Source: Alphaproteobacteria bacterium
GTDB lineage: Bacteria > Pseudomonadota > Alphaproteobacteria > DSM-16000 > Inquilinaceae
Direction: 5' to 3'
Assembly: GCA_028284045.1 (NCBI GenBank)
Contig: JANQSN010000005.1
Location: forward strand, 1 to 64,000
Length of the DNA stretch: 64,000 bases
In this document: piece by piece, positions 26,133-32,680 of the stretch
How the letters are laid out: each line of letters begins with the position of its first letter
Numbering within the stretch: the stretch's first letter is position 1
Notes under the pieces: generated by a model
Databases searched by the model: none
What the model saw: only the letters and a program-made list of their open reading frames with translations
Told to the model about the DNA's origin: nothing
Program-made: the position numbers and the translations under genes

Positions 26133-26253
26133 TCTCGCCCGCCACCACTTCGATCATCGCTCGGATACCGCAATCGGCGCCGCCCGTCGCGCACGCCGTG
26201 GCCCGGGGACCGCGGGCCGTCACAAGGCCGCGTCGGCCCCCGCCAGCCCGGGC

Positions 26254-26403
26254 TCACGTCATCTGGCGGCGCGCGTGACGAAGCCAGTGCGACTGAACGG
26301 ACAGCACGGCTTGCGAGCAGGTGGTGACCGTCTTCGCCATCTCGAAGAAGGTCTGCACGTAGGCGAGCTGCACGCTTACGGGCGTGAGGTACCGTCCGGT
26401 CAT
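26254..26403 (-). CDS. Small hypothetical protein (49 residues) with strong ribosome site
   Basis: An ATG at 26403 follows GAGGAGTGAGACA, one of the best ribosome sites in the window. The 49-residue product begins MTGRYLTPVSVQLAYVQTFF, has an amphipathic helix and ends in a basic tail (HARRQMT). No family is recognised. It precedes an unusually AT-rich 250-bp region and lies between tsaD and the YciI-like gene, all on the minus strand. The frame continues to 26451, but the longer start has no ribosome site. Confidence 0.5.
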   Translation of the reverse strand: MTGRYLTPVSVQLAYVQTFFEMAKTVTTCSQAVLSVQSHWLRHARRQMT

Positions 26404-26660
26404 TGTCTCACTCCTCGATCCTGCCCTTAAGGACGTTATTAGGTGCTCCACCAGCTTAATACTCGCAACGTCGAACCTTGGATCACTTCTCGGATAAAGA
26501 AGATCACCTAAATTTGCTTAGAAGACGAATAATTAGCGGTCCATCTGTCGCGAGATCTTGCCTCGGACGCTCTTCTTAACGGCTCGGCCTACCGCGCCGC
26601 AAGAACAAGCCTGCGATGACTTCAATATTTCCGCGGCGCGGGACGTCAGGACCGGGATGA

Positions 26661-27722
26661 TCAAGCTTTGACGCCGGCCCCGGTGGCGGGCGGGGCATCG
26701 GGATCGAGTGGCCAGCGGGGTCGCGGCGCGAAGTCCAGCGGATCGGCCTGTCCCAGGCGCAGCCGCTCCACCCCGGCCCAGGCGATCATCACGGCATTGT
26801 CGCCGCACAGCGCCGGCGGCGGGACGGTGCAGGTCCAGCCGCGCGCGCCCGCCAAGCCGTCCAGCCGGTCGCGGATCATCCGGTTCGCCGCGACTCCGCC
26901 GGCCGCCACCAGACAGCGGATCTGGGGCTGGGCAGCGGCCGCCGCCGACATCGCCCGGGCCGTCCGGTCCACCAGACAGTCGGCGACGGCCACCTGCACC
27001 GCCGCCGCCAAATCCGCCTGGTCGGACGGATCCATCGGGCCCGGCGGCAGCCCGGCCACCGCCCGGCGCACCGCCGCCTTCAGCCCGGAGAACGAGAAAT
27101 GCGGCTCGCTGCGGCCGACCATCGGCCGCGGCAGGGCGAACCGGCCGGGATCCCGCGCCGCCGCCGCCGCCCGCTCGATCGCCGGCCCGCCGGGATAGCC
27201 GAGGCCGAGAAGCCGGGCGGACTTGTCCAGGGCCTCGCCGACCGCATCGTCGATGGTCGTCGCCAACCGCCGGTACCGGCCGACGCCGTCGACCACCAGA
27301 AGCTGGCAATGCCCGCCGGAGATCAGCAGCAAGAGATAGGGGAAATCCACGCCATCGGTCAGCCGCACCGTCAGCGCGTGGCCTTCCAGATGGTTGACCG
27401 CGAGATAGGCAATGCCGGCCGCGGCGGCGATGCCCTTGGCCATCATCGAGCCGACCATGACGCCGCCGATCAGCCCGGGCCCCGCCGTCGCCGCGACACC
27501 GTCCAGGCGATCCGGCGTCAGCCCCGCCTCGTCCAACGCCCGGCCGACCAGACCGCCCAGCCGGGCGAGATGCGCGCGCGCCGCCACCTCCGGCACCACG
27601 CCGCCATAGGGCGCGTGCTCGGCCACCTGGTCGGTCAGCGGCGCGGACAGCACCCGGCCGTCGCCATCCACCACGGCGGCGGCGGTCTCGTCGCAAGAGG
27701 TCTCGATCCCCAGGACATGCAT
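26661..27722 (-). CDS. tsaD: tRNA N6-threonylcarbamoyladenosine transferase TsaD
   Basis: A 353-residue ASKHA-fold enzyme that completes the t6A37 modification on ANN-decoding tRNAs with TsaB, TsaE and TsaC. The protein starts GIETSCDET, has the metal-binding HLEGH (in AVNHLEGHALT) and LLISGGHCQL, and later GLGYPGGP. Essential in most bacteria. The neighbour is unusual: in many alphaproteobacteria tsaD is divergent from hemC, but here hemC is absent and hemD follows directly. Confidence 0.97.
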   Translation of the reverse strand: MHVLGIETSCDETAAAVVDGDGRVLSAPLTDQVAEHAPYGGVVPEVAARAHLARLGGLVGRALDEAGLTPDRLDGVAATAGPGLIGGVMVGSMMAKGIAAAAGIAYLAVNHLEGHALTVRLTDGVDFPYLLLLISGGHCQLLVVDGVGRYRRLATTIDDAVGEALDKSARLLGLGYPGGPAIERAAAAARDPGRFALPRPMVGRSEPHFSFSGLKAAVRRAVAGLPPGPMDPSDQADLAAAVQVAVADCLVDRTARAMSAAAAAQPQIRCLVAAGGVAANRMIRDRLDGLAGARGWTCTVPPPALCGDNAVMIAWAGVERLRLGQADPLDFAPRPRWPLDPDAPPATGAGVKA

Positions 27723-27997
27723 GGCCGGTCAGTCGTCCAGCCGGCGCCGGCCACAGCCACGCCGGGAAACACCGGCCCAATTCTGAACAGATGGTGGCAA
27801 TCCCGCCTCACCCTGGTGTATCTGAGGGGCGGCCGTTGCGACGGCCTCACCCGTCTTCACGCGGCCCCCTATCCGGCCATGGTCATAGATCAGATGCCGG
27901 ATCGCGCGAAACCACCGACGATATCCCGGTCGGTGTCCTTTCCGCCGACGCCCGACCGATCCGCCGCAGCGGCAGCCTTGGCCGGGGAGACCCTGAG

Positions 27998-30900
27998 ATG
28001 CCCCTGCCCTGGCTGATCACGCGGCCGGCCGAAGAGGCCGAGGAGTTCGCCGAGGTCCTGGCGAAACGCGGTCATGCCGGCATCGTGGCGCCGATCCTGG
28101 AGATCCGCGCCGGCAGCCGGGCACGCGCGGACCTGGACGGCGTACAGGCCCTGCTGTTCACCTCGACGAACGGCGTACGTATGTTCGCCCGCCTGTCGAC
28201 CCGGCGGGACATCCGGGTCCTGACCGTCGGGGACCGCACGGCAACGGCGGCGCGCGACGCCGGTTTCGCGATGGTCGACAGTGCCGCCGGCGCGGCCGGC
28301 GATCTGGTGCGCCTGGCGGAGCGGGAGCTTGACCCCGCGGCCGGCGCCCTCTGGCACGGCGCCGGCGCGCATGTCACCGACGAGCTGCGCCCGGCCTTGG
28401 AGCGTCTCGGATTCGAGCTGCGCACCGTGGTGCTCTATCGCGCGGCGGCGGTCGACCGTCTACCGGAAGCCGCCGTCTCGGCCTTGTCCGACCGTACGAC
28501 CGCCGGTGTCCTGTTTTTCTCTCCCCGTACCGCCGAGGTCTTTGTTAAGCTGGCGGTACAGGCGGGTCTGGCCGATCGGCTGGCGGGGTTGGAGGCGCTG
28601 TGCCTCAGCCGGCCGGTCGCCGATGCCCTCCTGTCGGCGAGCCGCGCGGCCGGCCCCGCCGGCTCACCGGTCCGCTGGGCGCGCGTGCGCGCGGCGGCCC
28701 ATCCCGACCGCAGCGCCTTCCTGGCCCTGCTTGACGACGATGACGAGGGGCGAACCATCGCCCCCGACGAGAGCCTTGCGGAACCGCTCATGACGCCCAG
28801 CGACACGCCGACCGATCCGCCCGCCGCCTCCGAGTCGAGCGAGGCGACAAGCGCCGTCATCGAACTGTTCGGCGGTATCCGCCCGATGGCCACCAAGCTC
28901 GCCATGCCCTTCACGACGGTGCAGGGCTGGAAGAAGCGCGGCAACATCCCCGACCAGCGGCACAGCGACATCGCCGCGGCGGCCGAACGCCATGGCATCG
29001 ACCTGCCGGCCGGGCTGTTGGCGGCGACCACGCCGCCCAGCGGCGATCGCGCGGAGACCGACGCCGAGGAGGCACCGACGCTGACCGCCGGACCGCCCGC
29101 GGGATCGGCGCCCGGCGACGGTGCGACCGACGACAACGAACAGCAGGACGGCCAGGGCGCAGACACCCATGGCAAGACCGTCAGCGGGGAGGAGCGGCCG
29201 GTGACCACGCAGACAACCCAGGCGCCCGAACCGGCGCGCGGCGGCACGACGGGCTGGCTGGCGGCCATCGTCGCGGTGATCGCCGCGATCGCCGCCGCAA
29301 CCGCGCCCTGGTGGGCACCGGAGCGACTGGCCGGCTGGCTGGGCCAGACCCCGGCGTCGGAGATCGACGAGCGGCTGGCGGCTTTGGAAGCCATCGACGC
29401 GCCGGACCTGTCCGGCATCGAAGGCCGGCTGGGCGATCTGGAAGACCGCCTGGCGGCGCTGGAGGCGCCGAGCGACGCACCCACCCCGGCCTCGGCCGAC
29501 CAGCTCGATGCGTTGGCCGGCACCGTGGCGCAGCTTGAGGCGGCCCAGGAGAGTCTGGCTGCCGAGTTGGCCGCCTTGGCCGACCTGGCCGCCCAACCGG
29601 CGGTGGAGGAAGACCCGGCAACCGAACCGGCGCCGACCGATGCGGGCACCGTCGACCCGGCACCGACCCCGGACATCGACGTCGACGGGCTGGTGGCGCG
29701 CCTCGACGCGCTGGAGGCCGATCTGTTCGGCCTGGGCGACACCGTCGGCGGCTCGGCCGATGCGGTGGCGACGCTGGGTGCGCGCCTGGATGAGGTGGAA
29801 GCCACGGCCGGCGGCCTGGACGACCTGCTGGGCCGCCTGTCGGCCATGGAGACGGCCGTCGGCGGCCTCTCCGGCGATCTCGCCGCGCTGATCGAACGGG
29901 ACCCGCTCGCCGGGGCGGAGGCGATCGAGCGCTTCGAGGGCCTGGTGACGCGGCTCGACCGGGTGGACGGCGCGGTCGGCGCGCTGCAGGCCGTGCGGGT
30001 CCGCATGGAGGCCCTGGAGACCGCGCAGACCGCCAACGACATGTTGCGCGACACGCTGTCCAGCGCGATCGACGACGTCAACCAGCGCATCGACGGGCTG
30101 GGCACCGTCGTCGCCCAGACCGAGGACACCGTCGGCCGGTCGCTGGACAACGCCACGGCCCGCCTGGAAGGCGCCCTGGACGAGACGGAGCGAACGCTCG
30201 ACGCGGAGATCGTCGGGATCCGCGGCGATGTCGACGCCGCCGTCGCCGATCTGCAGTCCGAGGTCGGCACCACCGTGGCCGACCTGCAGTCCGACGTCGG
30301 CACCACCGTCGGCGGTCTGCAGGCGGAGGTGGCCGCCGCCGCCGCGGCGACCGACGCGCGGGTCGCCACCGTGGAGGCGTCGGTGGAAGAACTGCTGGCC
30401 GCCGATACCACGACCCAGGCGATCCTGCTGGCGGTCGGCCAGCTTCAGGTGTCGGTGGAACGCGGACAGGGCTTCACCGCGGCGCTGGCCACCCTGGAAG
30501 ACGTCGCCGCCGACGACCCGGCCTTCGCCGATCAACTCGACCGGCTGCGCCCGCATGGCGAGAGCGGCGTGCCGACCCGCGCCCAGCTCGTCGACCGCTT
30601 CTTCCCGATGGCGGAGGCGGCGCGCGCCGCGGAGCGGCTGCCCGACGAACCCGACTGGATCGATCGCACGCAAGCCGCGGTGGAAGGGCTGATCAGCGTC
30701 CGCCCGGTGGCGCAGGAGGTCTCCGGCGACACCACGCCGTTCATCCTGGCCCGCGCAGAGGCGCGGGTGGCCCGCGGCGATCTGGACGGTGCGGTGGCGG
30801 CGGTCGGCGACCTGACCGGTGCGGCGGCCGACGCCGCGGCCGGCTGGCTGGCCGATGCCCAAGCCCGGCTGGCGGCCGAAGCGGCCTTGCAGGTCCTGAC

Positions 30901-31273
30901 CGACGAGGCGGTGGGCCGCCTGACCGGCGCCACCGATCCCGCCGAGGACGCCCCGGCGGCGGAGGACGCCGCATCGGCCGAGGAGGCTGCGCCGCCGGAA
31001 GAGGCCGCCCCTGCCGAGGAAGCCGCACCGGCGGAAGTGGCCACCGAGGACATGGCGACCGAGGACATGGCGACCGAGGACGCGGCCCCGGAGGACGCGG
31101 CGGCAGAAGACGCAGCGCCGGAGGATGCGGCGCCGGCCGAGGACGCGGCTGCGGACGCACCGCCGGCCGACGAGGCCGCCGGCGAGACCCCGGACGACAC
31201 GGCGCCCGCGCAAGACGCCGAGCCTGCCGAGGCGCCGGCCGCCGATACCGAGCCCTCGGACACCTCCGGCTGA
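27998..31273 (+). CDS. HemD-Mic60 fusion: uroporphyrinogen-III synthase joined to a mitofilin-like membrane protein
   Basis: One uninterrupted frame of 1091 residues. Residues 1 to about 245 are a uroporphyrinogen-III synthase (MPLPWLITRPAEEAEEFA; LLFTSTNGVRMFA; GVLFFSPRTAEVF). Residues about 286-337 are a small helix-turn-helix (LFGGIRPMATKLAMPFTTVQ). A single membrane helix lies at about 418-438. A long coiled coil follows to about 815, then a mitofilin-like C-terminal domain (about 820-975) and an Ala/Glu-rich tail with EDAAPEDAA repeats. In related bacteria hemD and the Mic60 gene (COG4223) are separate neighbours. Mic60 shapes membranes in alphaproteobacteria and mitochondria. An internal ATG at 28790 could start Mic60 separately, but its ribosome site is weak. 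The main start, ATG 27998, follows GGGGAGACCCTGAG. Confidence 0.8.
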   Translation: MPLPWLITRPAEEAEEFAEVLAKRGHAGIVAPILEIRAGSRARADLDGVQALLFTSTNGVRMFARLSTRRDIRVLTVGDRTATAARDAGFAMVDSAAGAAGDLVRLAERELDPAAGALWHGAGAHVTDELRPALERLGFELRTVVLYRAAAVDRLPEAAVSALSDRTTAGVLFFSPRTAEVFVKLAVQAGLADRLAGLEALCLSRPVADALLSASRAAGPAGSPVRWARVRAAAHPDRSAFLALLDDDDEGRTIAPDESLAEPLMTPSDTPTDPPAASESSEATSAVIELFGGIRPMATKLAMPFTTVQGWKKRGNIPDQRHSDIAAAAERHGIDLPAGLLAATTPPSGDRAETDAEEAPTLTAGPPAGSAPGDGATDDNEQQDGQGADTHGKTVSGEERPVTTQTTQAPEPARGGTTGWLAAIVAVIAAIAAATAPWWAPERLAGWLGQTPASEIDERLAALEAIDAPDLSGIEGRLGDLEDRLAALEAPSDAPTPASADQLDALAGTVAQLEAAQESLAAELAALADLAAQPAVEEDPATEPAPTDAGTVDPAPTPDIDVDGLVARLDALEADLFGLGDTVGGSADAVATLGARLDEVEATAGGLDDLLGRLSAMETAVGGLSGDLAALIERDPLAGAEAIERFEGLVTRLDRVDGAVGALQAVRVRMEALETAQTANDMLRDTLSSAIDDVNQRIDGLGTVVAQTEDTVGRSLDNATARLEGALDETERTLDAEIVGIRGDVDAAVADLQSEVGTTVADLQSDVGTTVGGLQAEVAAAAAATDARVATVEASVEELLAADTTTQAILLAVGQLQVSVERGQGFTAALATLEDVAADDPAFADQLDRLRPHGESGVPTRAQLVDRFFPMAEAARAAERLPDEPDWIDRTQAAVEGLISVRPVAQEVSGDTTPFILARAEARVARGDLDGAVAAVGDLTGAAADAAAGWLADAQARLAAEAALQVLTDEAVGRLTGATDPAEDAPAAEDAASAEEAAPPEEAAPAEEAAPAEVATEDMATEDMATEDAAPEDAAAEDAAPEDAAPAEDAAADAPPADEAAGETPDDTAPAQDAEPAEAPAADTEPSDTSG

Positions 31274-31324: not shown

Positions 31325-32680
31325 ATGCGCGCGACCCTCTTCCTGATCCTCAAGATCGCCATCCTCGTCGCCATCGCCGTCTGGCTGGTCGACCGGCCGG
31401 GCTCGGTGCAGATCGTCTGGCAAGGCTATGTGGTGGAGATCTCCTTCGCCCTGTTCGTCCTGGCGATCGCGCTTCTGATGGCGATCGCCGGCCTGGCCTA
31501 CTGGCTCTGGCGGGTGCTGATCCGCTCCCCCCAGACCATCGCGCGGTCGCGCATGCTGGCGCGCCGGGAGCGCGGCTATGAAGCCCTGACCCAGGGCCTG
31601 GTGGCCGTCGCCGCCGGCGATGCGGAAGGGGCGAAGCGGCTGTCGAAGCGGGCCAGCGTGCTGCTCGACGGCCCGCCGCTGACCCAGCTTCTGTCCGCCC
31701 AGGCCGCCCAACTCGGCGGCGACGAAAGCGCCGCGCATGACCGGTTCGAGGCGATGGCCGAACAGCCGGAGACCGAATTTCTCGGCCTGCGCGGCCTGCT
31801 GGCCGAGGCGATCCGTCGGGAGGACTGGCTGGGCGCCCTCGACATCGCCAACCGGGCGCGGCGGCTCAGCCCGAACACGCCGTGGCTCTTGAAGGTCTCC
31901 CTCGACCTGGAGATCCGCCAGCGCAAATGGCTGGACGCGCAGAACACGCTGGCCCAGATGGTGCGGGTCGGCAGCCTGACCAACGCGGAAGGCCAGCGGA
32001 TGCGCGCCGCCATCCTGCTGGAGCGCAGCCGCGAGGCGGAGGGCGAGGGCGACCTCGACCGGGCGCTGGAACTGGCCAACGAGTCCGCCCGCCAGCAGCC
32101 CGACTTCGTGCCGGCGATCGCCGCGGGGGCCGCCCTACTGGGCCGCCTCGGCAAGACCCGCCAAGCGGCGAAGATGATCGAACGGGCCTGGCCGACCCAG
32201 GCACATGACGATCTCGCCGCCGTCTACCGCCGCCTGGGCGGCGATGACGAGGACCCGGTCGCCCGCGTGAAGCGCCTGGAGGGCTTGAACAAGGCCGCAC
32301 CGCTGGAAGCGGCGGGACTGCTGGCGCTGGCGGATGCGGAGATGGCGGCGCGGCTCTACGGGGCGGCGCGCGCTCATCTGACCCAGATCGCCGAGGGCAA
32401 CGCCCATCAGGCGGCGACCCGCGGGGTGTTCCGGCGGCTGGCGGAGCTGGAGATCGCCGAGACCGGCAATGGCGACTCGGCGCGCCGCTGGCTGGAGCGC
32501 TCGGCCAGTGCCCCGCCGGATCGCGCCTGGGTCTGCGATGCCTGCGGCACCGTCGCGGCGGCTTGGAGCGCCATTTGCCCCGCCTGCGGCGCCTTCGCCA
32601 GCATGAGCTGGCGCAGCCCCAGCGAAGGCGTGCATCTGCCCGCCCCCGCGACACCGACCCTGCTGCCGGCGATGCCCTGA
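31325..32680 (+). CDS. hemY: HemY-type TPR membrane protein
   Basis: A 451-residue protein with two N-terminal membrane helices (about 4-22 and 38-60) and TPR helices, as in the HemY N-terminal family found in haem operons. Its role in tetrapyrrole synthesis is not defined. The C-terminus carries a zinc-ribbon-like Cys4 motif (CDACGT, then CPACGAF), typical of the alphaproteobacterial form. It follows the HemD-Mic60 gene by 51 bp, preserving the hemD-mic60-hemY order. Confidence 0.9.
   Translation: MRATLFLILKIAILVAIAVWLVDRPGSVQIVWQGYVVEISFALFVLAIALLMAIAGLAYWLWRVLIRSPQTIARSRMLARRERGYEALTQGLVAVAAGDAEGAKRLSKRASVLLDGPPLTQLLSAQAAQLGGDESAAHDRFEAMAEQPETEFLGLRGLLAEAIRREDWLGALDIANRARRLSPNTPWLLKVSLDLEIRQRKWLDAQNTLAQMVRVGSLTNAEGQRMRAAILLERSREAEGEGDLDRALELANESARQQPDFVPAIAAGAALLGRLGKTRQAAKMIERAWPTQAHDDLAAVYRRLGGDDEDPVARVKRLEGLNKAAPLEAAGLLALADAEMAARLYGAARAHLTQIAEGNAHQAATRGVFRRLAELEIAETGNGDSARRWLERSASAPPDRAWVCDACGTVAAAWSAICPACGAFASMSWRSPSEGVHLPAPATPTLLPAMP

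Follow-up and report, generated by a model that had tools for sequence, protein, structure and literature searches.

An in-frame join of hemD and mic60 in an alphaproteobacterial genome and in many of its relatives

The locus described here raises the question of whether the genes for uroporphyrinogen-III synthase (HemD) and the membrane organiser Mic60, which lie in one reading frame, form a genuine fused gene, and of what would be made from it. It lies in the window, the whole stretch of 64,000 nucleotides that was analysed, which is part of a genome of 4.32 Mb in 63 contigs that is rated 100% complete. Judging from the sequence, we consider it probable that this is a genuine gene fusion, in which loss of a stop codon has joined the operon neighbours hemD and mic60, resulting in a membrane-anchored HemD.

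The reading frame and its parts

Table 1. Features of the fused hemD-mic60 gene and of its neighbours in the window
Feature	Position	Strand	Basis
tsaD, divergent neighbour of the fused gene	26661..27722	-	profile matches
Shine-Dalgarno-like GGGGAG before the HemD start codon (anti-SD pairing, -7.6 kcal/mol)	27984..27989	+	sequence
Fused hemD-mic60 reading frame, 1091 aa	27998..31273	+	ORF and translation
Uroporphyrinogen-III synthase (HEM4) domain, residues 6-245	28013..28732	+	profile match and conserved columns
Junction, residues 246-264 (place of the HemD stop codon in split relatives)	28733..28789	+	alignment with relatives
Internal in-frame ATG (residue 265), position of the relatives' Mic60 start	28790..28792	+	junction translations
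carph-isopro helix-turn-helix-like domain, residues 286-336	28853..29005	+	NCBIfam, 1.4e-16
Predicted membrane helix, about residues 418-440	29249..29317	+	hydropathy
Predicted coiled-coil region, about residues 452-770	29351..30307	+	sequence; weak coiled-coil type profile matches
C-terminal mitofilin domain, residues 783-971	30344..30910	+	Pfam; 7pv1 match
Low-complexity acidic Ala/Glu/Asp/Pro tail	30950..31270	+	sequence
hemY (HemY_N, TPR, zinc ribbon), following the fused gene in the operon	31325..32680	+	profile matches

The frame runs from its ATG through 1091 codons without a stop to a TGA, and it contains both a HEM4 match (PF02602, residues 16-213, 9e-30, 103.9 bits against a Pfam cut-off of 27.5) and a Mitofilin match (PF09731, 1.5e-21, 77.4 bits against a cut-off of 27.4). 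This confirms an earlier note on this DNA, which had placed HemD and Mic60 in one frame with no stop between them and had also given the correct order of parts, namely HemD, helix-turn-helix, membrane helix, coiled coil and a mitofilin-like end. The HemD part keeps 46 of the 49 columns that are conserved at ≥80%, including two invariant ones (Tyr and Ser), and the mitofilin part keeps 16 of 17 conserved columns, with residues 900-972 matching the solved Mic60-Mic19 structure 7pv1 (2.4e-5). The strongest hydrophobic stretch of the whole protein, by hydropathy, is at residues 418-436, and the order characteristic of Mic60, an N-terminal membrane helix followed by a coiled coil, is thus present, the coiled-coil part being seen from the sequence and weak matches only.

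HEM4 and Mitofilin each match once in the whole genome, in both cases at the fused gene, and a comparison of the entire fused protein with the contigs of the genome returned only an unrelated low-complexity match. Conversion of hydroxymethylbilane to uroporphyrinogen III is a putative activity of the HemD part, predicted from its being the sole HEM4 gene of the genome. Membrane bending and the organisation of inner-membrane folds are known for other alphaproteobacterial Mic60 proteins (PMC12136173), and the same role is putative for the Mic60 part described here. At the 70.6% GC of this window, 20 codons would be free of stops with a probability of about 0.75, so that the open junction alone is weak evidence for a fusion, and the real evidence comes from the relatives.

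The carph-isopro helix-turn-helix precedes the membrane helix of Mic60, so that a membrane organiser would carry a domain of DNA-binding type on its cytoplasmic face. In the 160 loci retrieved, the carph-isopro profile matches about 50 frames.

Recurrence of the join among the Alphaproteobacteria

The census was drawn from a search of 60 relatives, from class surveys for Mitofilin and HEM4 and from the 160 retrieved loci, and its base are the 155 alphaproteobacterial loci at which hemD and mic60 are adjacent. The two genes are fused in 56 of these, in frame with exactly one intervening stop in 21, in frame with more stops in 6, and out of frame in 72. The fused share, about one third, is to be taken as approximate, as the sample was not strictly random (listed fused cases were taken first, followed by most other loci with listed Mitofilin places). 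The matching fusion that the earlier note had proposed to look for in related genomes is thus found, and the note's premise that the group keeps hemD and mic60 as separate genes was wrong, since fused cases occur in 25 of the 68 alphaproteobacterial families sampled. A few loci needed individual treatment: G012, whose contig breaks off within the coiled coil, is nevertheless counted as fused, G185 and G210 looked fused in the first classification and lost the mitofilin match in the second, and G043 was left out of the count as the automatic pick took another copy, although HEM4 and Mitofilin were confirmed in one frame.

Among the fused relatives are G004 and G012, which belong to the same family as the genome studied, and four species of genus g3. 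Uniformly fused genera are g3, g47, g51 and g140, with four species each, and g93 with three. The same domain order is found in same-frame HEM4-Mitofilin examples elsewhere (G004, G011, G099, G052 and G139); such frames differ from that of the window in linker length, in the carph-isopro domain and in the internal start, which some of them lack altogether.

In-frame arrangements make up 83 of the 155 loci where one third would be expected (p=1.8e-7), and 34 of 65 when counted by family (p=0.001), relatedness being only partly removed in either figure. On a tree of HemD, Mic60 and HemY the fusion state requires at least 23 changes, compared to a mean of 45.7 for shuffled labels, which indicates that fusion arose or was lost many times and yet is heritable and stable in several genera. 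The simplest mechanism is that one stop codon is lost or gained between operon neighbours that happen to share a frame. In the fused pair G004 and G012, the 15-codon tail that follows HemD up to the ATG is rich in synonymous changes and poor in amino-acid changes (pS 0.62, pN 0.06), so that it is translated and under constraint; in most other fused genera the linker evolves loosely. Pure chance was considered as the cause of the open frame, and the junction alone would be compatible with it, but the in-frame excess and the uniformly fused genera argue against it.

Exactly one in-frame stop separates HemD from Mic60 in 21 relatives, for example G055, G008, G017, G057 and G020, and read-through of this stop would likewise give a fusion. 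At G043:C1 the hemD-mic60 locus is present three times; two of the copies form an inverted pair where the contig begins (1-8000) and the third lies near its end (about 4596500), a pattern suggesting that the assembly went wrong at the ends of a circular chromosome.

Products of the joined genes and competing explanations

In the reading that we prefer, the frames of hemD and mic60, which are neighbours in the conserved operon hemC-hemD-mic60-hemY, would have agreed, and loss of the single HemD stop would have joined them. Translation from 27998 would then give a protein of 1091 residues; the in-frame ATG at 27791, further upstream, would extend this protein by 69 residues ahead of the HemD domain and is the less likely start. 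Mic60 has its N-terminus in the matrix or cytoplasm and its C-terminus in the intermembrane space or periplasm. By this topology, the HemD and helix-turn-helix parts would be cytoplasmic and, across one membrane helix, the coiled coil and mitofilin domain periplasmic, so that the soluble HemD would be anchored to the inner membrane via Mic60. Such a tether would follow from the anatomy of the protein, while a functional benefit is putative. HemD would be made only as part of the fusion, and some free Mic60 may start at the ATG at 28790. The possibility raised in the earlier note, that HemD is translated alone, does not exist here, as no stop follows HemD and the genome has no other HEM4 gene; if uroporphyrinogen III is made by HemD, the fusion must be made.

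It is a serious possibility, if one that falls short of being probable, that the locus is decoded twice, as the fusion from 27998 and as free Mic60 from the ATG at 28790, in which case only a fraction of Mic60 would carry the enzyme. Junction translations place a Mic60 start ATG at the matching position in fused as well as split relatives (window '...LAEPL-M-TPSDTP', G004 '...GEERT-M-DPADEP', G011 '...RTANG-M-DPTPDKP', and the split G003 '...SEAS-M-TDATETP'). The best SD-like sites before the first domain of Mic60 have medians of -6.4 kcal/mol in fused loci, -4.8 in those with one stop and -5.9 in those out of frame, those of the fused frames being as strong as in split genomes and stronger than the median of -3.5 for length-matched random segments (fused vs null, p=1e-8). 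Judged by these sites, many fused genes probably start Mic60 internally too, and so would yield both the fusion and free Mic60; that a strong internal ribosome-binding-site-like sequence is kept in many fused relatives suggests that free Mic60 is still wanted. Also in favour of an internal start, the 15 codons before the ATG are without synonymous change in genus g3. Against it, the ATG of this genome is preceded only by a weak GGAA (28780-28783) with no clear SD motif, its -3.5 kcal/mol being equal to the null median, although this does not argue the internal start away, because the SD-like sites of tsaD and hemY in the same genome are equally weak. The site is weaker than -4 kcal/mol in 14 of the 56 fused frames, this genome included, and in four of them (G059, G137, G139 and G234) there is no start codon at all between HemD and the first domain of Mic60, so that these are obligate fusions.

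A lasting tether would be lost if a protease cut the fusion into HemD and Mic60, which we think improbable. The junction and the N-terminal linker are probably disordered (rich in Asp, Glu, Pro and Ser) and evolve loosely in most fused genera, which speaks for such a cut, but no protease site was identified, and the linker is short in the fused genomes that lack an internal start. More improbable still is a sequencing or assembly artefact, in which a missed stop or a compensating frameshift would join two genes. A single substitution would be enough for this, as 21 relatives with exactly one stop at this place illustrate; however, the same open join is found independently in the same-family genomes G004 and G012 and in many other genera, and the composition of the junction is coding-like. 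An artefact was rejected as a general cause because the join recurs in many genomes, and for the same reason an error peculiar to this assembly is unlikely.

Returning to the favoured gene fusion, the join is best read as a tolerated or mildly useful streamlining of the operon, which would provide a fixed 1:1 output and a membrane tether, rather than as a new machine built for a purpose. Many families do without the fusion and keep hemD and mic60 separate, so that it is no requirement, and an in-frame join may be neutral, as loss of a stop is cheap in high-GC genomes. We regard as rather doubtful, if less so than proteolytic separation, the bolder proposal that HemD-Mic60 is a selected and repeatedly evolved arrangement in which an early enzyme of the haem pathway, placed on the bacterial membrane organiser, would link tetrapyrrole supply to the building of respiratory membranes, and in which an internal start would set how much Mic60 is tethered and how much is free.

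The core organiser of mitochondrial cristae descends from its alphaproteobacterial relative, Mic60. The recurrent fusion of this protein to a haem enzyme provides comparative evidence of a possible link between both functions beyond their shared operon, and it opens the direct question of whether uroporphyrinogen III is synthesised at the membrane or where the membrane folds. There is also a warning for annotation, as proteins of 600-1200 residues that are annotated in these bacteria as 'uroporphyrinogen-III synthase' often contain a concealed Mic60, and surveys that count separate Mic60 genes can miss those that are fused.

Related fusions and the surroundings of the operon

The closest named relative of HemD-Mic60 is the HemD/HemX fusion of other proteobacteria (NF005411, PRK06975). 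In both, an N-terminal HemD is followed by a single membrane helix and then by a C-terminal part that is mostly alpha-helical and coiled-coil, and both are built from neighbouring genes of a hemC-hemD-x-hemY operon. They differ in the C-terminal part, which is HemX (PF04375) in one and mitofilin in the other; at E≤1 the window protein is matched by neither of the profiles PF04375 and NF005411 and so does not belong to HemD/HemX, and a comparison of the Mic60 and HemX profiles gave one weak match of 26 columns (28% probability). The HemD/HemX fusion itself, a parallel case that speaks for a genuine fusion in the window, is present in G577 (NF005411, 873 bits against a cut-off of 414); G553 has HEM4 and HemX domains, but only 180 bits for NF005411.

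In alphaproteobacteria, a HemC-HemD-IMMP-HemY operon has been described head to head with TsaD-GpsA-YciI-EVE (PMC7641849). The window shares this arrangement, with EVE, YciI and TsaD as minus-strand neighbours of the fused gene and HemY downstream, but hemD and mic60 are separate genes in the published case while here they form one frame; the window also lacks hemC and gpsA. In the open-access literature searched, a HemD-Mic60 fusion was not found described, and mitofilin appeared with HemD only in PMC7641849. The join of HemD and Mic60 is thus real, recurrent and little noticed, and is a variant of the kind of fusion known from HemD/HemX.

The gene for glycerol-3-phosphate dehydrogenase (gpsA) normally separates tsaD from the YciI gene; it is absent from that place (26133-26660), and the whole assembly has no match to PF01210 or PF07479. 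In the fused relatives G004 and G012, PF01210 gives no more than weak matches, so that the loss of gpsA may be common to the three genomes.

A further difference concerns hemC, which in relatives is located upstream of hemD and is absent from this window. The earlier note had remarked on its absence beside hemD and tsaD, and this was borne out: a search for a hemC remnant between tsaD and hemD gave no convincing match, and the gene lies on another contig (G000:C32:79030-79695), where hemB follows it directly downstream. The hemC product stands apart, with a mean identity of 42% to family members as against 54-73% for each of these, while the HemD of this genome is not unusual, which suggests that hemC has been replaced by a foreign or second copy.
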